DNA of 14,770 nucleotides from Pseudomonadota bacterium. Its GTDB lineage: Bacteria; Pseudomonadota; Gammaproteobacteria; Burkholderiales; Burkholderiaceae. The notes under the pieces were generated by a model. That model was not told the origin of the DNA, did not search any database, and was given only the letters and a program-made list of their open reading frames with translations. The position numbers and the translations under genes are program-made. Location: assembly GCA_023441105.1 (NCBI GenBank), contig JAEZQX010000499.1, positions 1-14,770 of the forward strand. The letters are read 5' to 3'. Position 1 is the first letter of the stretch. Every line of letters starts with the position of its first letter. Below are positions 5,940 through 13,586 of the stretch, one piece after another.

Positions 5940-6845
5940 TCAGAATTCGCCGAGGTTGGAACCGATCACGCTCGCGCCGGCCGCGGTGGCCTTGGCGGCG
6001 AACGCCTGCAGCGAGCGGTAGCTGGTGCGACCCTGCCGGATGGTGAGCAGGCTGGCACCGCTTTGCGCCGCGATCATCATCGCCTCGCCGCCGGCATCGG
6101 CCGCCGGCGTGTCCACGATCACCATGTCGTAGACCCGCGAGAAGATGCCCAGCAGCTCGGGAAACGATTCGCCGGCGAACAGGTCTAGCGGGTTCGGCGG
6201 AATGCCGCCGCAGGGAAGCACGGACAGGCCGCGCAGCGCCGGAAACTGCTGCACGGCGTAGGCGACGCTGCGGCCGGCGAGCAGTGCCGACAGGCCCGTC
6301 TGGTTGGGGATGCCGAAGAGCTCGTGCTGGCGTGGATGGCGAAAGTCCGCATCGATCAGCAACGTGCGCTGGCCGACCTGCGAGAACGCGACCGCTAAAT
6401 TGGCGGCGAGGAAGCTGCGACCTTCGTCGCGCCCGGGGCTCAGGATCGCCAGGGCATTGTTGCTCCGCTCGCCAGCCTTCCACTTGAGCAGCACCTGGTT
6501 GCGCAACTCGCGCAGGTCCTCGGCAAGCTTGTCGGCGGCTTCGTAGGCGGTCACCACCTCCGCGCTCACCATGCCGCTGCCGGGCGCCATCACCGGAAAG
6601 TCGAACTGGTAGGCCAGCACCCGCTGCAGCTCGTCGCGCCGCAGGACGCCGAGGTGGACGGCGGCTTGGCCGAACTTCTGCTGCTTGCGCCGGGCATGCG
6701 CGAGGATCCGGTCGATGGTCTTGGCATCGACCATGCCGGCATCGAGCAGGATGTCGCCGATGCGGCGATCGCGCTCGCGCGACGGCAGGTCTTCGTCGAT
6801 TTCCTCGGGCGCCAACAGGTCGGCAGTGCGTGCTGGAGAATTCAT
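5940..6845 (-). CDS. epsG: EpsG-type chain-length tyrosine-kinase-like ATPase with MshEN-like N-terminal domain
   Basis: A 301-residue cytoplasmic partner of EpsF, in the BY-kinase/ParA-MinD-like P-loop family. Residues ~28-85 hold two 24-residue helical motifs of the MshEN/type II secretion ATPase N-terminal type (starting R28-I-G and K57-F-G), exactly 29 residues apart. The P-loop region is SPGRDEGRS (136-144), with Arg143 where most family members have Lys. Walker A' is LLIDADFR (162-169) and Walker B is MVIVDTP (241-247). The protein ends shortly after the last strand and lacks the C-terminal Tyr cluster of Wzc/CapB kinases. Its ATG overlaps the EpsF stop by 4 bases (ATGA). It likely controls EPS polymerisation together with EpsF; kinase activity is uncertain. 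Confidence 0.88.
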   Translation of the reverse strand: MNSPARTADLLAPEEIDEDLPSRERDRRIGDILLDAGMVDAKTIDRILAHARRKQQKFGQAAVHLGVLRRDELQRVLAYQFDFPVMAPGSGMVSAEVVTAYEAADKLAEDLRELRNQVLLKWKAGERSNNALAILSPGRDEGRSFLAANLAVAFSQVGQRTLLIDADFRHPRQHELFGIPNQTGLSALLAGRSVAYAVQQFPALRGLSVLPCGGIPPNPLDLFAGESFPELLGIFSRVYDMVIVDTPAADAGGEAMMIAAQSGASLLTIRQGRTSYRSLQAFAAKATAAGASVIGSNLGEF

Positions 6846-8293
6846 GCGGATTTCCCGGGTTGAGGCGAGCCGAAGGTGAGCGGCACCAGCCGCGGCGGCC
6901 CCTGCACCCGCGCGACCAGCGTGCTGCGCTTCGCCCTGCGGGTCTTGCCGAGGACCGGCACGCCGCCGGCGGCGGCCAGGTCGTCGGCATCCAGCACCCG
7001 GCGGTTGAGGTATTCGACGAGCACGGCAACGCCCACGGCGAGGAAGCTGCCGACGATCGCCGCCAGCAGGAGATTGAGCAGCAGCTTCGGACTCGAATGG
7101 CTGGACGGCGCGGCGGCCGGCTTCAGGATGAAGACGTTGGCATGCGTCGCCTGGCTCTCGAGGCCGACCTGCGTGACCCGCTGCGCGATCGACTCGTAGG
7201 CACTACGGGCGTTGTCGACGTCGCGCTGCAGGACCTGCAGCTCGTCGCGCGCCTGCTTCATCTGCAGCACCTTGCGCCGCTGCTCCTCGAGCGTGCCGCG
7301 CAGCGCGATCTCGCGCGCGGAGATCAGCTGCGCGCTCCGGTCGAGGCTTTGCACGATCAGCGCCATCTCGCGCTTGAGCCGGCCATTGACCGCGTCGAGC
7401 TCCTCGCGGACGCGGCGATACTCGGGATGGCTGGTGCCGAAGGCGACCGCGCTTTCGCCCAGCCGCGACTCGAGCCGCGTCTGGTCCGCCTTCAGCTGCT
7501 GCACCACCGGGCTCTGCACCACGTCCGGCAACTGCCCGGCTTCACCGCTGGACTGTGCGGTCTTGGCAAGACCCTGGCGCTTCACCGCCTCTACCGCTTC
7601 GGCGGAGACGGTCGTGTGCTGCGACGACAGCTCCTGCAGGCGCCGGGTCTCCACATCGAGGCCTTCGTCGGCCGACACGATGCCGCTGCCGCGCTGGTAT
7701 TCCGACAGGCGCCTTTGCGCCGCATCGAGGTCCTCGCGCAGCGTCTGCGACTGGCCTTCGAACCAGCGCCGCTGCTGGGTGGCGGGTTCGACCCGCATCT
7801 CGATGTTGGTGTCGACGTAGGCCGAGGCGAATGCGTTGGCGACGGTGGCCGCGAAGTCGGCGGAGGGCCAGGAGAACGCGATCCGCATCACGCTCGAGTC
7901 GCGGCCGGGCTTGACCTGGAGCTTCTCGAGCAGCAGCTCCGCCAGGTACTGGCGGATCGACCCCGCGCCGTCCGCATCGTCCTCGAAGCGCGCAATGAAC
8001 GCCGGATCCCGCGTGAGGTCGAGCCGGTCGACCACCATCAATGCCAGCCGTTCGCTGCGCGCGATGTCGATCTGGGTGGCCATGTAGCCCGGCGTCAGCA
8101 GGCCAGGCAGCACCACGCCGGCGATCGGATCGGGCGACTTCACGTCGACCACGACCTCCGCCTCCGCGGTATAGCGTTTCGGCAGCAGGAGACTGGCCGC
8201 CGCCGCCAGGCCGACGATCACGGCGAAGGTCAGCAGCAGCAGCCCCCAACGGGCCCTCAACATGGGAAGGAGGCGGATCATGGGGATGGTCAT
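6842..8293 (-). CDS. epsF: EpsF-type chain-length determinant (Wzz/PCP family)
   Basis: A 483-residue inner-membrane polysaccharide co-polymerase. A short basic N terminus leads into transmembrane helix 1 (~17-36), then a Wzz-type periplasmic domain beginning YTAEAEVVVDV. A long predicted coiled-coil region follows (~160-380), then transmembrane helix 2 (~404-429) and a ~54-residue cytoplasmic tail starting NRRVLDADDLAAAGG, the usual kinase-contact end. It sets EPS chain length with EpsG and the polymerase. I chose the ATG at 8293 (MTIPMIRL) because AGGA lies 6 nt upstream and the frame upstream (ATG at 8380) adds 29 residues of Arg/Pro-rich sequence unlike the family. It is separated from the epimerase by a 394-bp gap, so it may have its own promoter. 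Confidence 0.88.
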   Translation of the reverse strand: MTIPMIRLLPMLRARWGLLLLTFAVIVGLAAAASLLLPKRYTAEAEVVVDVKSPDPIAGVVLPGLLTPGYMATQIDIARSERLALMVVDRLDLTRDPAFIARFEDDADGAGSIRQYLAELLLEKLQVKPGRDSSVMRIAFSWPSADFAATVANAFASAYVDTNIEMRVEPATQQRRWFEGQSQTLREDLDAAQRRLSEYQRGSGIVSADEGLDVETRRLQELSSQHTTVSAEAVEAVKRQGLAKTAQSSGEAGQLPDVVQSPVVQQLKADQTRLESRLGESAVAFGTSHPEYRRVREELDAVNGRLKREMALIVQSLDRSAQLISAREIALRGTLEEQRRKVLQMKQARDELQVLQRDVDNARSAYESIAQRVTQVGLESQATHANVFILKPAAAPSSHSSPKLLLNLLLAAIVGSFLAVGVAVLVEYLNRRVLDADDLAAAGGVPVLGKTRRAKRSTLVARVQGPPRLVPLTFGSPQPGKSA

Positions 8294-8687
8294 GCGATGT
8301 CCTGCTGCGGGTGGAAGAGGCCTGACGCGCGGGCGGGAGGTCCGCTGGATCGAGCCGGGCCGCATGGCTGCGGCCTTCAATGGACCGGCGTCTCGCGGCC
8401 GGGATCACGGTGGCGCGAGTCGGGCGAAGTCGCGGAGGGAGGCTCGATCAGAAGCGGGCCGGCTGGAAGCGGGCCGGCCCGGCGCACTGCTGCCAAGCCG
8501 GTCACTGCTGCCTGGCCGATCCGGCGGATCGCCTCACAAGGGTCCGATGCAGGACCCCGGGCAATCACCGGCCACGCGTCGGGCACGATGATAGGCCGCG
8601 AATGCGCTGCATCTCGCAGCGCAACGAACCAAGCGGTTACGAATCGTTAGTGATGTAAGTCAGCGGCGGCTTACCGCTGCGACGATG
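8294..8687. other. Non-coding stretch between epimerase and epsF
   Basis: No convincing gene lies in these 394 bp on either strand. It holds a two-copy 15-bp direct repeat (8449-8463 and 8464-8478, sharing GAAGCGGGCCGGC), a perfect 15-bp palindrome CGATCCGGCGGATCG (8517-8531), a 9-bp palindrome core ACGAATCGT, and the hairpin described separately at 8661-8679. A TATCAT box on the minus strand could be a -10 element for epsF, but no fitting -35 is seen. The length and the inverted repeats suggest a regulated promoter or leader for the epsF-epsG-polymerase-lyase-GT operon. Confidence 0.5.
8661..8679 (-). terminator. Weak hairpin after the epimerase gene
   Basis: CAGCGG and CCGCTG form a 6-bp stem with a 7-nt loop, 9 bp past the epimerase stop. 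There is no U-run after it on the minus strand, so it is not a standard intrinsic terminator. It may protect the 3' end of the mRNA or be part of an alternative-folding leader with the flanking CTTAC/GTAAG elements. Confidence 0.3.
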
Positions 8688-9713
8688 TCAGCCGATGTAA
8701 GCGCGGTACCAATTGCAGAATGCCGCCAGCCCTTCAGGCAGCGGCGTCAGCGGCGCGAAGCCGGTGGCGGCCTGCAGCCGATCGATGCTGGCGCAGGTCA
8801 CCGGCACGTCCCCCGCCTGGATCGGCATTTCGTTGCGGATCGCCTTGCGATCGAGGATGCGCTCGAGCGTCGCGATGAAGTCGTTGACCGTCGTCGGCCG
8901 GTTGTTGCCGATGTTGAAGATCGCGGTGTTGCCCTCGACGCGCGGCGGAAGGTCCAGCACCCGGCAGACGCCTTCGACGATGTCGTCGACGTAGGTGAAA
9001 TCGCGCAACAGCTCGCCGTAGCCGAACACCTTGATCGGCTGATCCTTCAGGATCGCCTCGGTGAACAGCCATGGCGCCATGTCGGGGCGGCCCCACGGGC
9101 CGTAGACGGTGAAGAAGCGCAGGCCGGTCGACGGGATGGCGTAGAGATGGCTGTAGCTGGCCGCCATCGCTTCGTTGGCCGCCTTGGTCGCGGCGTAGAA
9201 GCTTGCCGGCTTGTCGATGCGGTCTTCTTCGGCGAACGGCGTGCTGTGCCGGCCGCCGTAGACGCTCGAGCTGCTGGCATAGACCAGGTGCGACGACTTG
9301 CGCGCCCGCGCCAGCTCCAGGATATTGGCCATGCCGACCAGGTTAGACCGGACGTAGACGTCCGGCCGATCGATCGAATAGCGCACCCCCGCCTGCGCGG
9401 CGAGGTGTACGATGCGATCGAAGCGGCTCTCGAGCATCGCCGGCCCGAAGTCGGCGTCGGCGATGTCGAGCCGGCGGAATTCGAAGCGGCCAATGCCGCT
9501 GATGCGACCGATGCGGCTGGCGTCGCCGACCTGGCGTTCGATCTCCCGCAGGCGGTCGCGCCGCAGGGTCTCCAGGACCGGCAGGTTGCCGGCGCCGAGC
9601 GCATCGATGCCGACCACGTCGATGCCCGCGCGCAACAGGGAGATGCAGACGTGCATGCCGATGAAGCCGGCCGCGCCGGTGACCAGGACGGGATCGCGGA
9701 CACTTTCGCTCAT
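8688..9713 (-). CDS. UDP-glucuronate 4-epimerase-like SDR epimerase
   Basis: A 341-residue extended short-chain dehydrogenase. The NAD-binding GAAGFIG is at residues 13-19, SSSSVYGG at 147-154 supplies the catalytic Ser, and YAATK (173-177) holds the catalytic Tyr and Lys. The stretch TGLRFFTVYGPWGRPDMAP and the following RDFTYVDDIVEG match UDP-glucuronate 4-epimerases better than GalE or dTDP-glucose dehydratases. The enzyme would convert UDP-glucuronate, made by the divergent ugd, to UDP-galacturonate for the EPS. I start it at the ATG at 9713, because an in-frame ATG at 9812 would add 33 residues with no family similarity before the Rossmann strand. No strong ribosome site precedes 9713. 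UDP-glucose 4-epimerase activity is a less likely alternative. Confidence 0.88.
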   Translation of the reverse strand: MSESVRDPVLVTGAAGFIGMHVCISLLRAGIDVVGIDALGAGNLPVLETLRRDRLREIERQVGDASRIGRISGIGRFEFRRLDIADADFGPAMLESRFDRIVHLAAQAGVRYSIDRPDVYVRSNLVGMANILELARARKSSHLVYASSSSVYGGRHSTPFAEEDRIDKPASFYAATKAANEAMAASYSHLYAIPSTGLRFFTVYGPWGRPDMAPWLFTEAILKDQPIKVFGYGELLRDFTYVDDIVEGVCRVLDLPPRVEGNTAIFNIGNNRPTTVNDFIATLERILDRKAIRNEMPIQAGDVPVTCASIDRLQAATGFAPLTPLPEGLAAFCNWYRAYIG

Positions 9714-9832
9714 GTTGCGATTGTCGCACCGAACCTGTTCGCGCCGATGATGTGCACAGGCCGTCCGTCGGTCACCGCGGCCCGTCGCCGCGACAGGTCC
9801 GCAGGCGCGCAACGCGCAGCGGCGGCGCGTTT

Positions 9833-9840
9833 GTTATCCT
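9833..9840 (+). promoter_or_regulatory. Possible extended -10 promoter for ugd
   Basis: TGTTATCCT (starting at 9832 or 9833) fits an extended -10 element (TGnTATnnT) 34 bp before the ugd start, with no good -35. It lies in the 160-bp divergent region between the epimerase and ugd, which also has a CGCGG/CCGCG inverted repeat near 9775-9795 and TGTGCACA near 9753. Confidence 0.3.
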
Positions 9841-9873
9841 GACCCGCTTTGCTGCAGCTACCAGGAAGAACAG

Positions 9874-11193
9874 TTGAAAGTCACGATCATCGGCACCGGA
9901 TATGTAGGCCTCGTCACCGGCGCCTGTCTCGCGGACGTGGGCCACGAGGTGCTCTGCGTCGACCTCGACCAGCGCAAGGTCGACCGTCTGAACCAGGGCG
10001 AGATTCCCATCCATGAGCCGGGCCTCGAGTCCGTGGTCCGGCGCAACGCGGCCGAGAAGCGGCTGTCGTTCACCACCTCGCCGGCCGACGGCGCGGCGTA
10101 TGGCGACGTGCTGATGATCGCCGTCGGCACGCCGCCCGACGAGGACGGCTCGGCGGACTTGTCGCACGTGCTGGCCGCGGCCCGCTCCATCGGGCAGCAC
10201 CTCCAGCGCTACGTGGTCATCGTCAACAAGAGCACGGTGCCGGTGGGCACCGGCGACCTGGTCGAGAAGGCAGTCGGCGAGACGCTGGCGGCGCGCGGCG
10301 CCAACATCGAGTTCGCGGTCGTCTCCCATCCCGAGTTCCTCAAGGAAGGCGCGGCGGTCGAGGACTTCCAGAAGCCCGATCGCATCATCCTCGGCACCGA
10401 GGATGCGCGCGCCGAGAAGGTGATGCGCGAGCTTTACGCGCCGTTCCAGCGCAACCACGACCGGGTGCTGGTGATGTCGCGCCGCTCGGCCGAGCTCACC
10501 AAGTACGCCGCCAACGCGATGCTCGCGACCCGCATCTCGTTCATGAACGAGCTCGCCAACCTCGCCGAGACTCTCGGCGGCGACATCGAGCAGGTCCGCC
10601 GCGGCATCGGCTCGGACAGCCGCATCGGCTATTCGTTCCTCTATGCCGGCACCGGCTACGGCGGCTCGTGCTTTCCGAAGGACGTGAAGGCGATCCTGCA
10701 CAGCGCGAAGACCGCCGGCCAGCCGCTGCGGCTGCTCGACGCGGTCGAAGCGGTCAACGAGCAGCAGAAGCTGGTGCTGGTGCGCAAGGCGCTCGGCCAT
10801 TTCGGCGGCTCGCTGCAAGGCAAGCGCTTCGCCCTGTGGGGCCTGGCGTTCAAGCCCGACACCGACGACATGCGCGAGGCGCCGGCGCGCGCCATCCTCG
10901 AGGCGTTGTGGGCCGAAGGCGCCTGCGTGCAGGCCTACGATCCGCTGGCGATGAACGAGTGCCGTCGCATCTACGGCAACCGCCGCGACCTGGTGCTGAC
11001 CGCATCGCCGATGGAAGCGGTGGTCGGCGTCGACGCGCTGTTCATCGCCACCGAGGCCAAGCCGTATCGCGCGCCCAACTTCAACGACATGATGGCCAGC
11101 ATGAACGCGCCGGTCATCTTCGACGGCCGCAACCTCTACGATCCGCAGGCGGTTGCCAAGGTGGGCTTCACCTACTTCGGCGTCGGCCGCTGA
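9874..11193 (+). CDS. ugd: UDP-glucose 6-dehydrogenase
   Basis: A 439-residue UDP-glucose/GDP-mannose dehydrogenase-family enzyme. It would oxidise UDP-glucose to UDP-glucuronate with two NAD+ in the cytoplasm. The N-terminal Rossmann motif is GTGYVG (residues 7-12). VGTPP (84-88) and SHPEFLKEG (151-159) follow, then ELTKYAANA (207-215) with Lys210 and Asn214, and the catalytic cysteine motif GGSCFPKD (263-270, Cys266). Length is normal for a bacterial Ugd. The start is a TTG with AGGAAG 5 nt upstream; it is supported because the first strand (KVTIIGTG) begins at once and no other start fits. It is divergent from the epimerase that would use its product. GDP-mannose dehydrogenase is less likely given that neighbour. 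Confidence 0.93.
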   Translation: MKVTIIGTGYVGLVTGACLADVGHEVLCVDLDQRKVDRLNQGEIPIHEPGLESVVRRNAAEKRLSFTTSPADGAAYGDVLMIAVGTPPDEDGSADLSHVLAAARSIGQHLQRYVVIVNKSTVPVGTGDLVEKAVGETLAARGANIEFAVVSHPEFLKEGAAVEDFQKPDRIILGTEDARAEKVMRELYAPFQRNHDRVLVMSRRSAELTKYAANAMLATRISFMNELANLAETLGGDIEQVRRGIGSDSRIGYSFLYAGTGYGGSCFPKDVKAILHSAKTAGQPLRLLDAVEAVNEQQKLVLVRKALGHFGGSLQGKRFALWGLAFKPDTDDMREAPARAILEALWAEGACVQAYDPLAMNECRRIYGNRRDLVLTASPMEAVVGVDALFIATEAKPYRAPNFNDMMASMNAPVIFDGRNLYDPQAVAKVGFTYFGVGR

Positions 11194-11916: not shown

Positions 11917-12960
11917 CTAGCCAGCTGAGTAGGTCGCGCGCCAGCGAGCGACGGCCGCGACGGCGTCATCGAGCCCGGGCAGGATGAAGAGGCCCACGCC
12001 CGCAGGCGCCTTGCGCGCGCCGCTGCCGCCGGCCCACAGCTCGATCGTCGCCGGCAGCACCGCCCGCAGCTGGCCCAGCAGGGCCGGCACCTGGCGCGTC
12101 GGAAAGGCGCCGGAAAAAGACAGGGCGACCGCGTCCACCCGATGTGCCTGCGCCGCCTGGACGATCTCCAGCAACGGCATCTGCGTGCCCAGCGAAATGC
12201 AATAGGCGCCTTCCAGCGACAGCAGGGCTTCGACCATCAGCAGACCGAGGCCGTGCTGCTCGTTGGGCAAACTGGTGAGCAGGATCCGCGGCGCGGCGCC
12301 GCCGGGCACGGCGGCGATCGCCTGCCGCAGGATGCGCGTCGTCAGCTCGGTGAACAGGTGCTCCTCGAACACCTGCAGCTCGCCCGCCTCCCAGGCGCGC
12401 CCCACCGCGACCGCCAATGGCGCAATCGTGTCCTGGACAAAGCCCTGCAGGCCGTACCGTACGAGCCGCTGCTGCGCCGCCTGCAGGTAGCCCTCGCCGT
12501 CATGCCGGCGCACCATCGCGAGCAGGTTCTCCAGCTCACCGGGAGCCGGGGCGAAGATGTCCGCAGGCTCCCGCTCCCTTCGTCCGGAGGCCCTCGCCGG
12601 GGCATTGGCGACGCTCTCCCTTGATATCCCCGCCGCCCCCGCCGCACCCGCCGCTCCCGCCGCCCCCGCCAGTTCCCCTGCTCCCGCTGCCGCCCCGGTA
12701 CCGCCAACCAGGCGCGGTCGCGACAACGTCTCGAGCTCGTCGACCGGCAGTGCCAGCAGCCGCCCCGGCCGGAACCCCTGGTCCATCAGCCGCTTCACCT
12801 GCCGTAGCCGCCTTACCTGCTCCGCGGGGTAGAGACGTTCGCCATGCGCGTCGCGGGAAGGCGCGGGAAAGCCGTAGCGCCGCTCCCAGACCCGCAGCAC
12901 GTCCTTGGAGAGCCCAACATCCCGCTCGACCGCCGCGATCGTGAACCGAGTTTCGCTCAT
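11917..12960 (-). CDS. CarH/LitR-like MerR regulator with cobalamin-binding domain
   Basis: A 347-residue regulator. Residues ~6-75 form a MerR winged helix (TIAAVERDVGLSKDVLRVWE, then YPAEQVRRLRQVKRL). An Ala/Gly-rich linker (~86-112) follows, then a helical bundle with W190-x9-E200-H201 and a B12-binding Rossmann domain with E234-x-H236-x-x-G239. These are the two signatures that hold adenosylcobalamin in CarH: Trp/Glu/His cap the upper face and His ligates the lower face. By family knowledge such proteins bind their operator as a tetramer in the dark and release it when light breaks the Co-C bond. The ATG at 12960 directly abuts a 15-bp palindrome that overlaps its AGGA ribosome site, so autoregulation is likely. 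It is divergent from the fasciclin lipoprotein. Function as a light sensor is inferred from the intact motifs. Confidence 0.9.
   Translation of the reverse strand: MSETRFTIAAVERDVGLSKDVLRVWERRYGFPAPSRDAHGERLYPAEQVRRLRQVKRLMDQGFRPGRLLALPVDELETLSRPRLVGGTGAAAGAGELAGAAGAAGAAGAAGISRESVANAPARASGRREREPADIFAPAPGELENLLAMVRRHDGEGYLQAAQQRLVRYGLQGFVQDTIAPLAVAVGRAWEAGELQVFEEHLFTELTTRILRQAIAAVPGGAAPRILLTSLPNEQHGLGLLMVEALLSLEGAYCISLGTQMPLLEIVQAAQAHRVDAVALSFSGAFPTRQVPALLGQLRAVLPATIELWAGGSGARKAPAGVGLFILPGLDDAVAAVARWRATYSAG
12429..12439. promoter_or_regulatory. Third operator-like palindrome inside the MerR gene
   Basis: TGTCCTGGACA is an 11-bp perfect palindrome identical to the core of the two intergenic palindromes at 12961 and 13024. 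It lies within codons for Val-Gln-Asp in the regulator's own gene, about 530 bp from them. It could be an auxiliary operator or a coding coincidence. Confidence 0.35.
12628..12672. repeat. Five-copy 9-bp repeat coding the Gly-Ala-Ala linker
   Basis: Five tandem units, CCCCGCCGC twice, ACCCGCCGC, TCCCGCCGC and CCCCGCCAG, encode a (Gly-Ala-Ala)n stretch on the minus strand in the linker between the DNA-binding and cobalamin-binding domains. The unit keeps the reading frame, so copy number could vary between strains and change linker length. Confidence 0.85.
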
Positions 12961-12975
12961 TTTGTCCTGGACAAA
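12961..12975. promoter_or_regulatory. Palindromic operator 1 (MerR start / fasciclin -35)
   Basis: TTTGTCCTGGACAAA is a perfect 15-bp palindrome around a central T. It abuts the MerR start codon and covers its ribosome site on one strand, and ends 3 bp before the -35 of the fasciclin promoter on the other. Its core recurs 62 bp away, close to six helical turns. It is the probable binding site of the adjacent CarH/LitR-like regulator. Confidence 0.7.
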
Positions 12976-12978
12976 TGG

Positions 12979-13007
12979 TTGACAGCCAGTTCGACTGCGC
13001 CTATTCT
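12979..13007 (+). promoter_or_regulatory. Sigma-70 type promoter for the fasciclin gene
   Basis: TTGACA (12979-12984) and TATTCT (13002-13007) are 17 bp apart: a consensus -35 and a four-of-six -10. Transcription would start near 13013-13015, about 60 nt before the fasciclin ATG. The promoter lies between two copies of the palindrome, the classic layout for repression. Confidence 0.7.
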
Positions 13008-13016
13008 GGCGACGCG

Positions 13017-13022
13017 ATTCTA
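13017..13022 (-). promoter_or_regulatory. Possible -10 box for the MerR gene
   Basis: On the minus strand TAGAAT (five of six to consensus) lies just downstream of operator 2 and would start transcription about 50 nt before the MerR ATG. No good -35 is found at 16-19 bp. Operator 2 would fall between -35 and -10, the usual position for MerR-family binding. Confidence 0.35.
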
Positions 13023-13023
13023 G

Positions 13024-13036
13024 TTGTCCTGGACAA
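13024..13036. promoter_or_regulatory. Palindromic operator 2
   Basis: TTGTCCTGGACAA is a perfect 13-bp palindrome, identical to the inner 13 bp of operator 1. It lies about 10-22 bp downstream of the expected fasciclin transcription start and just upstream of the possible MerR -10, so a bound repressor could block both directions. Confidence 0.7.
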
Positions 13037-13073
13037 AACTACCAGACCCTTACCACCTTGCAAGGAGTACGAG

Positions 13074-13586
13074 ATGTTCCGCTGGCTCAAGGTTCTAGTC
13101 GTCGCCTCCGCCCTGGCAACCGTCGCCGCTTGCGGCAGCGACGACGATGACGACGCTTCCCGCGATCGCAATGTCGTGCAGCAGGCGCAGGCCGACTCGA
13201 GGTTCTCGATCCTGGCCGAAGCGGTCGCGGCGGCCGACCTCGCGACGACGCTCTCCGGTACCGGGCCGTTCACCGTCTTCGCACCGACCAACGAAGCCTT
13301 CGCGTCGTTGCTGGCGGAGCTCGGCGTCACCCAGGCGCAGCTGCTTGCCGACAAGCCGCTGCTCACCAAGGTGCTGACGTATCACGTCGTCGCCGGGCAG
13401 GTGCTGAAGGCAGAGGTGCCGGTCGGCGTGCCGATCAAGACGCTGCAAGGCGGCACCTTCACCGTCGACAGCGCGCTTTCCATCACCGACCAGCGCGGGC
13501 GCAGCTCCCGCATCGTCGAGACCGACGTGGTGGTCAGCAACGGCGTGATCCACGCCATCGACAAGGTGCTCCTGCCGGCGCCCTGA
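13074..13586 (+). CDS. Fasciclin (FAS1)-domain lipoprotein
   Basis: A 170-residue secreted protein with one FAS1 domain. The N terminus is a lipoprotein signal peptide with lipobox VAAC and acylated Cys20. Residue +2 is Gly, not Asp, which favours outer-membrane sorting. A five-Asp run (23-27) follows. The FAS1 domain (~38-168) has the H1 motif TVFAPTNEAF (67-76), the conserved YH (103-104) and a terminal H2 region ending GVIHAIDKVLLP. FAS1 domains mediate adhesion or ligand binding; the ligand is unknown here. The start at 13074 is fixed by AAGGAG 6 nt upstream (13062-13067) and by the signal peptide; an upstream in-frame ATG at 12975 lies in the operator/promoter. It is divergent from the CarH/LitR-like gene and likely its target, so probably induced by light or low B12. 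Confidence 0.92.
   Translation: MFRWLKVLVVASALATVAACGSDDDDDASRDRNVVQQAQADSRFSILAEAVAAADLATTLSGTGPFTVFAPTNEAFASLLAELGVTQAQLLADKPLLTKVLTYHVVAGQVLKAEVPVGVPIKTLQGGTFTVDSALSITDQRGRSSRIVETDVVVSNGVIHAIDKVLLPAP

Follow-up and report, generated by a model that had tools for sequence, protein, structure and literature searches.

A CarH-like regulator divergent from a fasciclin lipoprotein gene, with twin candidate operators around the shared promoter region and a putative third operator in the regulator coding sequence

Introduction

CarH operators are described as tandem 11-bp repeats of the form nnnnTnnACAn that overlap the promoter, and the Thermus operator as three such repeats, one of which contains the −35 element (PMC9304148, PMC8156234). 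In Thermus CarH, His132 is reported to ligate cobalt after illumination, and the H132A variant stays largely tetrameric in the light (PMC10442372). The published light signature comprises GxxW, EH, GxxH and GxxxP, but the upper His is not found in every light-responsive protein of this kind, since both CtMerR and the photocobilins respond to light without it (PMC11796333).

Genes of several functions respond to photo-oxidative stress in alphaproteobacteria. In Rhodobacter sphaeroides, expression of RSP_1409, encoding a fasciclin protein, is reported to increase under this stress (log2 change of 2.8 and 4.5), as is that of folE2 and two cyclopropane-type genes (PMC7074977). In Azospirillum, a fasciclin protein under RpoE-ChrR control is associated with flocculation (Dubey 2021, a study with photooxidative stress and flocculation in its title, as cited in PMC10949492), and the citing source also mentions another bacterium with an unexpressed fasciclin.

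Here we describe a Burkholderiaceae locus in which a gene for a CarH-like regulator and a gene for a fasciclin-domain lipoprotein diverge from a short shared region in which two matching palindromes bracket a predicted promoter. Throughout, the window denotes the whole stretch of 14,770 nucleotides that was analysed.

Results

Analysis of the divergent region revealed a compact arrangement of candidate operators around a single predicted promoter. The regulator, a CarH/LitR-type protein of 347 residues assigned from Pfam domains, PDB matches and signature residues, is encoded on the minus strand (11917 to 12960), and the putative target, a fasciclin-domain lipoprotein of 170 residues, on the plus strand (13074 to 13586; Pfam Fasciclin, E = 4.6e-30). 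The ribosome site AAGGAG at 13062 to 13067 points to ATG 13074 as the likely fasciclin start, rather than position 12975 of the open reading frame list. The protein has one Fasciclin domain (Pfam) behind a lipoprotein signal whose lipobox, VAAC, was read by eye, which places it among the fasciclin-domain lipoproteins.

The start codons of the two genes are 113 bp apart, and O1, a σ70-like promoter and O2 all lie between them. As stated in a preliminary description of this DNA, the palindromes O1 (TTTGTCCTGGACAAA, 12961 to 12975) and O2 (TTGTCCTGGACAA, 13024 to 13036, within the fasciclin leader) have centres 62 bp apart, at 12968 and 13030, and enclose a predicted fasciclin promoter (12979 to 13007, plus strand) with the −35 element TTGACA at 12979 to 12984, a 17-bp spacer and the −10 element TATTCT at 13002 to 13007. 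Also in agreement with that description, O1, which directly adjoins the regulator ATG at 12960, covers the regulator ribosome site, an AGGA on the minus strand 4 nt upstream of this ATG. A third copy of the palindrome with one mismatch, absent from the preliminary description, is found within the regulator gene at 12428 to 12440 (O3; TTGTCCAGGACAC on the minus strand, codons TTT GTC CAG GAC AC), and the window outside 12428 to 13036 contains no operator site with fewer than two mismatches. Under a first-order Markov model, 8.6e-5 perfect matches to TTGTCC[AT]GGACAA are expected in the window; two were observed, and none occurred in 300 simulated windows. The window contains 13 odd palindromes with 6-bp arms, and a common sequence is found only in the O1/O2 pair.

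The surroundings of the locus include polysaccharide-type genes on the regulator side (6842 to 11193), encoding a Wzz/GNVR chain-length protein, an epimerase and a UDP-glucose dehydrogenase, and, 3′ of fasciclin, a gene for a BrkB-family membrane protein (PF03631; 13695 to 14769, plus strand).

The regulator combines the domains of CarH with a departure at the cobalt ligand. Its MerR_1, B12-binding_2 and B12-binding domains (the last at residues 225 to 334) all score above the Pfam cut-offs, and its best solved relatives are PDB entries 3whp and 5c8d, of which 5c8d bears the name CarH. The adenosylcobalamin residues W190-x9-E200-H201 and E234-x-H236-x-x-G239 (E234-Q-H236) are present as previously described. 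With 112 bits against a cut-off of 400 for the NCBIfam CarH equivalog NF052513, the protein is a CarH-like relative and not an equivalog by that model. Nor does it belong to class II LitR, since both cobalamin domains are present and the operator is different, or to class III LitR of Burkholderia, described as having a C-terminus without similarity to known domains (PMC9758184), since B12-binding was detected. Relatives were collected by a scan of genome contigs, from which the best 80 of 105 loci, mostly from Betaproteobacteria, were taken; among these, the nearest to the window regulator is L001, from a Burkholderiaceae contig, at 65% identity. Many of the relatives have about 300 to 310 residues, fewer than the window regulator, which has an Ala/Gly-rich linker between the HTH and the B12 domain (residues about 85 to 115).

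At the positions of the light signature, the window regulator reads GRAW, EH, NEQH (in place of GxxH) and GTQMP. Where Thermus CarH has His132, the window regulator has Glu, and His was absent from this position in all 81 proteins compared. These differences would fit a regulator that uses B12 but not light and senses the AdoB12 level or redox, with fasciclin expression following B12 or oxygen, particularly as the H132A substitution blocks most of the light-driven disassembly of Thermus CarH (PMC10442372). Nevertheless, we consider such a light-independent regulator unlikely, because W-x9-EH and E-x-H are retained in 78 of the 81 proteins (as are EH and the lower-axial-type His), because CtMerR and the photocobilins respond to light without the upper His (PMC11796333), and because relatives have genes of stress type and for carotenoids as their likely targets. 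Since CtMerR too lacks the upper His, we did not take this residue as defining the family. Photochemistry of the window regulator thus appears likely from the precedent of CtMerR, and its details may differ in view of the missing His132 equivalent.

The regulators of three loci (L073, L074 and L077) have lost both cobalamin features, with EH changed to ER and the lower His to Ser or Asn, and are perhaps B12-blind relatives like CarA. They nonetheless adjoin ORFs from the flavin-oxidase cluster and the folE2 cluster described below.

Comparison of O1 with the promoter revealed the repeat register known from CarH. In the window, the O1 half TGGACA (12968 to 12973) and the −35 element are exactly 11 bp apart, giving two tandem direct repeats on the plus strand (12968 to 12984) that match the CarH consensus nnnnTnnACAn (PMC9304148); with two repeats here and two or three in many relatives, the locus carries a candidate operator of the CarH type. 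Where O1 and a promoter were both identified (55 loci), the O1 half and the −35 element lay 11 bp (24 loci), 22 bp (24 loci) or 10 bp (2 loci) apart, with 12, 23, 26, 27 and 102 bp seen once each; because the rows are related, the 48 of 55 loci at 11 or 22 bp do not represent 48 independent events. In a slightly differently defined set, also 55 of 81, TnnACA was found at offsets −22 (24 loci), −11 (28 loci) and 0 (52 loci, partly by definition of the −35 element), and at no further offset between −45 and +59 in at least 8 of the 55 loci. All three tandem repeats occur in 19 of the 55. The shorter, 11-bp form is found in the window and its fasciclin relatives, and the 22-bp form largely in one branch of the tree. 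The preliminary description had judged the operator to be unlike the TGTACA-type sites of related regulators. This part stands with respect to the TGTACA-N12-TGTACA operator of class II LitR (PMC9758184), but needs to be qualified in that the site does fit the TnnACA rule of CarH, −35 element included (PMC9304148, PMC8156234).

The same register bears on whether the regulator acts in the manner of MerR, as an activator or as separate dimers on each palindrome, with the 11-bp repeat at the −35 element being incidental. MerR proteins are described as binding palindromes as dimers (PMC8156234), and O2 and O3 of the window appear by eye to be plain palindromes without an 11-bp neighbour, as such a mode would have it. 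The exact spacing of 11 or 22 bp in most loci and the three repeats in a subset of them argue against this mode, to which we assign a low probability. In addition, promoters activated by MerR have a long spacer, unlike the normal 17-bp spacer found here.

The minus-strand half of O2 may function as the −35 element of the regulator's own promoter in many relatives. Among the 54 loci with O2, this half reads TGGACA in 31 and TAGACA in 13, and 39 of the 54 fit it as a −35 element with a −10 element 16 to 18 bp away, opposite the −10 element of the target; as the proposed −10 element is nearly the reverse of that of the target, this role is one that we infer. In the window, where O2 is T-centred and its minus-strand half reads AGGACA, the proposed regulator −35 element is weak, as is the −10 element CAGAAT at 16 bp from it.

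Codon usage within the regulator gene points to a third operator. O3 coincides with residues F174-V-Q-D-T, encoded in the window by TTT GTC CAG GAC ACG, and lies 534 bp from O1 in the window and about 400 bp from it in typical relatives. The pattern TTGTCNNNGAC was present at the O3 position in 34 of 39 genes and in 2 of the other 42. When synonymous codons were permuted 2000 times inside each gene, the pattern appeared in 4.7 of the 39 genes on average and never in more than 12. Selection of the 39 genes relied in part on the motif (with L066, L067 and L071 added); tree-based sets of 41 and 35 genes are fairer, the set of 35 consisting of two branches (8 and 27 rows) that do not together form a supported branch. 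In these sets, O3 was found in 32 of 41 genes (shuffled mean 4.5, maximum 13; 3000 rounds) and 31 of 35 (mean 4.3, maximum 12; 3000 rounds). After thinning to less than 70% identity, the wider set kept O3 in 18 of 22 genes (mean 2.5, maximum 9) and the core set in 17 of 18 (mean 2.4, maximum 8); at less than 65%, the counts were 14 of 18 and 13 of 14, respectively (again 3000 rounds each). On the tree, the O3 trait requires at least 8 changes.

Held-out members of the fasciclin branch came from a later survey of 147 relatives of a single Ramlibacter genome, of which 36 had the regulator. The 30 loci fetched comprised six genomes already used, four new members of the branch, assigned by likeness (L100, L104, L105 and L108), and 20 more distant loci; the held-out test of O3 was made with the four members. 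The pattern TTGTCNNNGAC is intact in L104, L105 and L108, and L100 has CAC for GAC; when a 13-mer with no more than one mismatch was required, which is stricter, L104 and L105 alone qualified. Two of the distant loci, L120 and L121, have a site at another position.

These data were also considered in terms of an O3 that is no operator, in which case translation, mRNA structure or shared ancestry would fix the FVxDT codons and the resemblance to O1 and O2 would be due to chance. Such an origin would be in line with the fact that O3 is mostly one base short of the full 13-mer, since Thr ACN fixes the last bases, with the strong codon bias at the single columns L238 (CTC) and S18 (TCC), and with the genes that lack O3 (5 of the 39, and one of the four held-out genomes). 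Still, the constraint falls on precisely the codons spelling TTGTC-NNN-GAC, and neither of the two biased columns has such a pattern around it. The middle codon varies among the 35 genes (CAG in 26, CTG in 4, CAA in 2, and otherwise ATG, ACG or GAG), so that the amino acid changes (Q, L, M, E or T) while the flanking DNA arms mostly stay. Furthermore, in the thinned set of 18, the five top 5-codon conservation windows all overlap O3 (top score 17.5, compared to 10.0 for the best window clear of the site and a median of 3.1), and outside the clade the same position has mostly TTC for Phe (25 of 37) and mostly GTG for Val (22 of 36). Together with the retention of O3 in three of the four held-out genomes, these observations make such an origin quite improbable, and we take O3 as a true operator to which binding is putative.

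The twin arrangement upstream of the regulator is itself conserved. Pairs of TTGTCNNNGACAA sites with at most one mismatch each, 58 to 82 bp apart, were found upstream of 49 of the 80 related regulators (best 80 of 105) and of 33 of 34 in the core set, and in none of 60 rounds of first-order shuffling of all 80 regions. Conservation of the palindromes in orthologous regions had been named beforehand as a test by the preliminary description, and the outcome supports its proposal of a CarH-type regulator with twin operators around the target promoter. The 31 of 80 upstream regions without a pair at one mismatch or fewer are mainly distant rows, and exact pairs occur in 13 of the 80 regions (best 80 of 105), including all 7 fasciclin loci. 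O2 is present in 54 of 81 regions, and a promoter defined as a TTGAC-type element, 16 to 18 bp and TAnnnT in 55 of 81, the other 26 having none by this definition.

Across ten genomes, the exact site TTGTCYWRGACAA was found in 17 places, 16 of them at the regulator locus, and the reversed reading of the pattern in 2 places; one of the ten genomes, G008, has no exact site anywhere. The one exact site outside the locus, in Azonexus hydrophilus (G010, L098:2077-2089), ends 16 bp ahead of the first ATG in the reading frame of a Lipocalin_2-domain protein. A looser 12-base pattern gave more scattered places across 14 genomes. Of the out-of-locus places inspected (L139 to L145), L139, L141, L142, L143 and L144 have a single one-mismatch site each, L140 has two one-mismatch sites 306 bp apart and L145 has one perfect TTGTCCTTGACAA with no partner; the module spacing occurs in none of them. 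It is highly improbable that the palindromes serve some other DNA-binding protein, with the CarH-like gene a mere neighbour, given that the sites accompany the regulator family in most loci, that their exact form is nearly confined to the regulator locus and that a further copy lies within the regulator's own gene.

One genome contains candidate sites at additional genes. Ramlibacter aurantiacus (G003, the genome of L022) has a second fasciclin gene (L131:893-1492), which lies on the contig of the regulator at a distance of about 187 kb and has 65% identity to the window protein over residues 1 to 170. Its upstream region has TTGTCATAGACAA, TTGACA in 11-bp register, 18 bp, TAATCT and TTGTCCTGGACAT, with the palindromes, one perfect and one with a mismatch, 63 bp apart. 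Six stretches with further fasciclin genes (L133 to L138) have no site at one mismatch, so the in-trans fasciclin case comes from one genome. The same genome has a carotenoid cluster, with a crtI family match above cut-off, a CrtW-like ketolase below cut-off, a polyprenyl synthetase and a glycosyltransferase, whose divergent starts carry TTGTCATAGACAA and TTGTCATGGACAG 153 bp apart (L146:7116 and 7269), which is not the module spacing. These sites suggest that the carotenoid genes of R. aurantiacus are under the same regulator. In all, the loose pattern occurs in 11 distinct places in this genome: three at the regulator locus, two at the second fasciclin gene, two at the carotenoid genes and four elsewhere.

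Supply of AdoB12 to the regulator is plausible, since all ten genomes have a match to the PduO-type cobalamin adenosyltransferase (in G001 a 35-residue piece at a contig end); a CobA/BtuR adenosyltransferase was found in two of the ten. A search for ChrR as a ChrR-type Cupin_7 domain gave matches in 8 of 10 genomes and was dropped, because the domain does not identify ChrR.

The gene opposite the regulator differs among relatives. In a wider set, the divergent genes formed clusters of 44, 32, 29, 22 and 7 ORFs, and the Pfam names, taken from one or two representatives per cluster, included flavin amine-oxidase-like, folE2-type GTP cyclohydrolase, glutathione peroxidase, DUF1365 and cyclopropane-synthase-like proteins. 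Fasciclin is divergent from the regulator in 7 of the 80 loci (best 80 of 105) and in the window, and the branch uniting these eight loci has a support of 94, without a star. The gain or loss of fasciclin is a single change whose direction cannot be read from the tree. Three of the four held-out genomes have fasciclin at the locus. In the fourth, G017 (L129), a gene for a glycosyl hydrolase family 3 protein takes its place, O3 has CAC for GAC and the upstream region has a single palindrome at one mismatch. Two tandem fasciclin genes follow the module at L130:4133-5123 (G033).

The different targets may keep one physiological theme, photo-oxidative stress, since fasciclin, folE2 and cyclopropane-type genes are all stress-induced in Rhodobacter sphaeroides. 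The view of the target as a surface protein of adhesion type, put forward in the preliminary description, is too narrow: relatives have stress-type genes at the same promoter, and induction of fasciclin genes by photo-oxidative stress is reported for an alphaproteobacterium (PMC7074977, PMC10949492).

Discussion

Taking together the sites, their register and conservation, the codon constraint and the difference in target genes, we propose a repressor of the CarH-like (class I LitR-like) kind that, with AdoB12 in the dark, represses fasciclin and its own gene through O1, O2 and O3 and releases them in the light, an account that we consider probable. In the dark, the AdoCbl-loaded regulator would oligomerise on O1 and the adjoining 11-bp repeat at the −35 element, and would also bind O2 downstream of the transcription start, so that the occupied shared region would keep both fasciclin and the regulator off or low. 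O3 would serve as an auxiliary operator that strengthens autoregulation, either as a roadblock or through a loop held by a tetramer. Light would break the Co-C bond, the oligomer would fall apart and release the DNA, and both genes would be expressed, with the fasciclin lipoprotein being made as part of a putative photo-oxidative-stress response. The account is weakened by the missing His132 equivalent, by NxxH in place of GxxH, by the NF052513 score below cut-off and by the 31 of 80 regions without a pair. More tentatively, a single tetramer could bridge O1 with its −35 repeat, O2 and the intragenic O3 in the codons of the cobalamin domain, jointly controlling the face-to-face promoters and the regulator's own elongation, with a light step that does without the bis-His ligand switch of Thermus; we regard this three-operator switch as conceivable but somewhat doubtful.

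In the literature, among the matches listed and as judged from titles and the starts of abstracts, we found no report of TTGTC-N3-GACAA operators, of an intragenic CarH operator or of a CarH-fasciclin pair, although an earlier mention is possible. If confirmed, the locus would represent a new layout for the B12 light-switch class, with a third site hidden in the coding sequence of the regulator. It would extend CarH-type regulation, described mainly for carotenoid genes in the sources cited here, to a broad betaproteobacterial set whose regulators probably act on photo-oxidative-stress genes and, within one branch, on the gene for a fasciclin surface lipoprotein. As a conserved site within the regulator gene, O3 offers a clean test case for whether a photoreceptor acts by DNA looping or by blocking its own elongation, and the 81 proteins, all without the second cobalt-binding His, could be used to test the generality of the known light mechanism. 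Finally, the operator set is compact and nearly unique in the genomes searched and, if binding is confirmed, would be a ready green-light part.

Several known systems share some of these features. Class II LitR proteins of Pseudomonas (PplR1, PmlR2) are repressors of light-induced genes, with a P. putida set that includes folE and a furan-fatty-acid gene, and have sites at the −35 region and between the transcription start and the start codon (PMC9758184). That class, however, is described as keeping only the four-helix bundle and working with a LOV partner, whereas the full cobalamin domain is present here, and its TGTACA repeats differ from the present operator in spacing as well as in sequence (PMC9758184).

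CarH of Thermus thermophilus, Bacillus megaterium and myxobacteria (class I LitR) shares with the present regulator the MerR HTH and two-part cobalamin domain with W-x9-EH and E-x-H, the TnnACA direct repeats at 11 bp with the −35 element as one repeat, and, in one relative here, a carotenoid cluster among the likely targets. In contrast to those proteins, the present regulator has no His132 equivalent and has NxxH for GxxH. The DNA differs as well, in that the outer repeat has an inverted mate, forming a 13-bp palindrome, two further palindromes lie downstream of the start site and within the coding sequence of the regulator, respectively, and the putative target is a fasciclin lipoprotein or a stress-type gene.

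In the lac operon, a tetrameric repressor uses several operators, one of which is about 400 bp away inside coding sequence. The present locus is similar in having multiple candidate operators with one intragenic, but here the intragenic site lies in the regulator's own gene, and the tetramer and looping are hypothetical. RSP_1409, folE2 and the cyclopropane-type genes of Rhodobacter sphaeroides are RpoE-dependent. With such fasciclin, folE2 and cyclopropane-type genes, the RpoE-ChrR regulon of alphaproteobacteria resembles the set of putative targets described here. The two differ in their sensors: a sigma/anti-sigma pair senses singlet oxygen in that regulon, whereas a B12-type repressor would act at the promoter in the present one.
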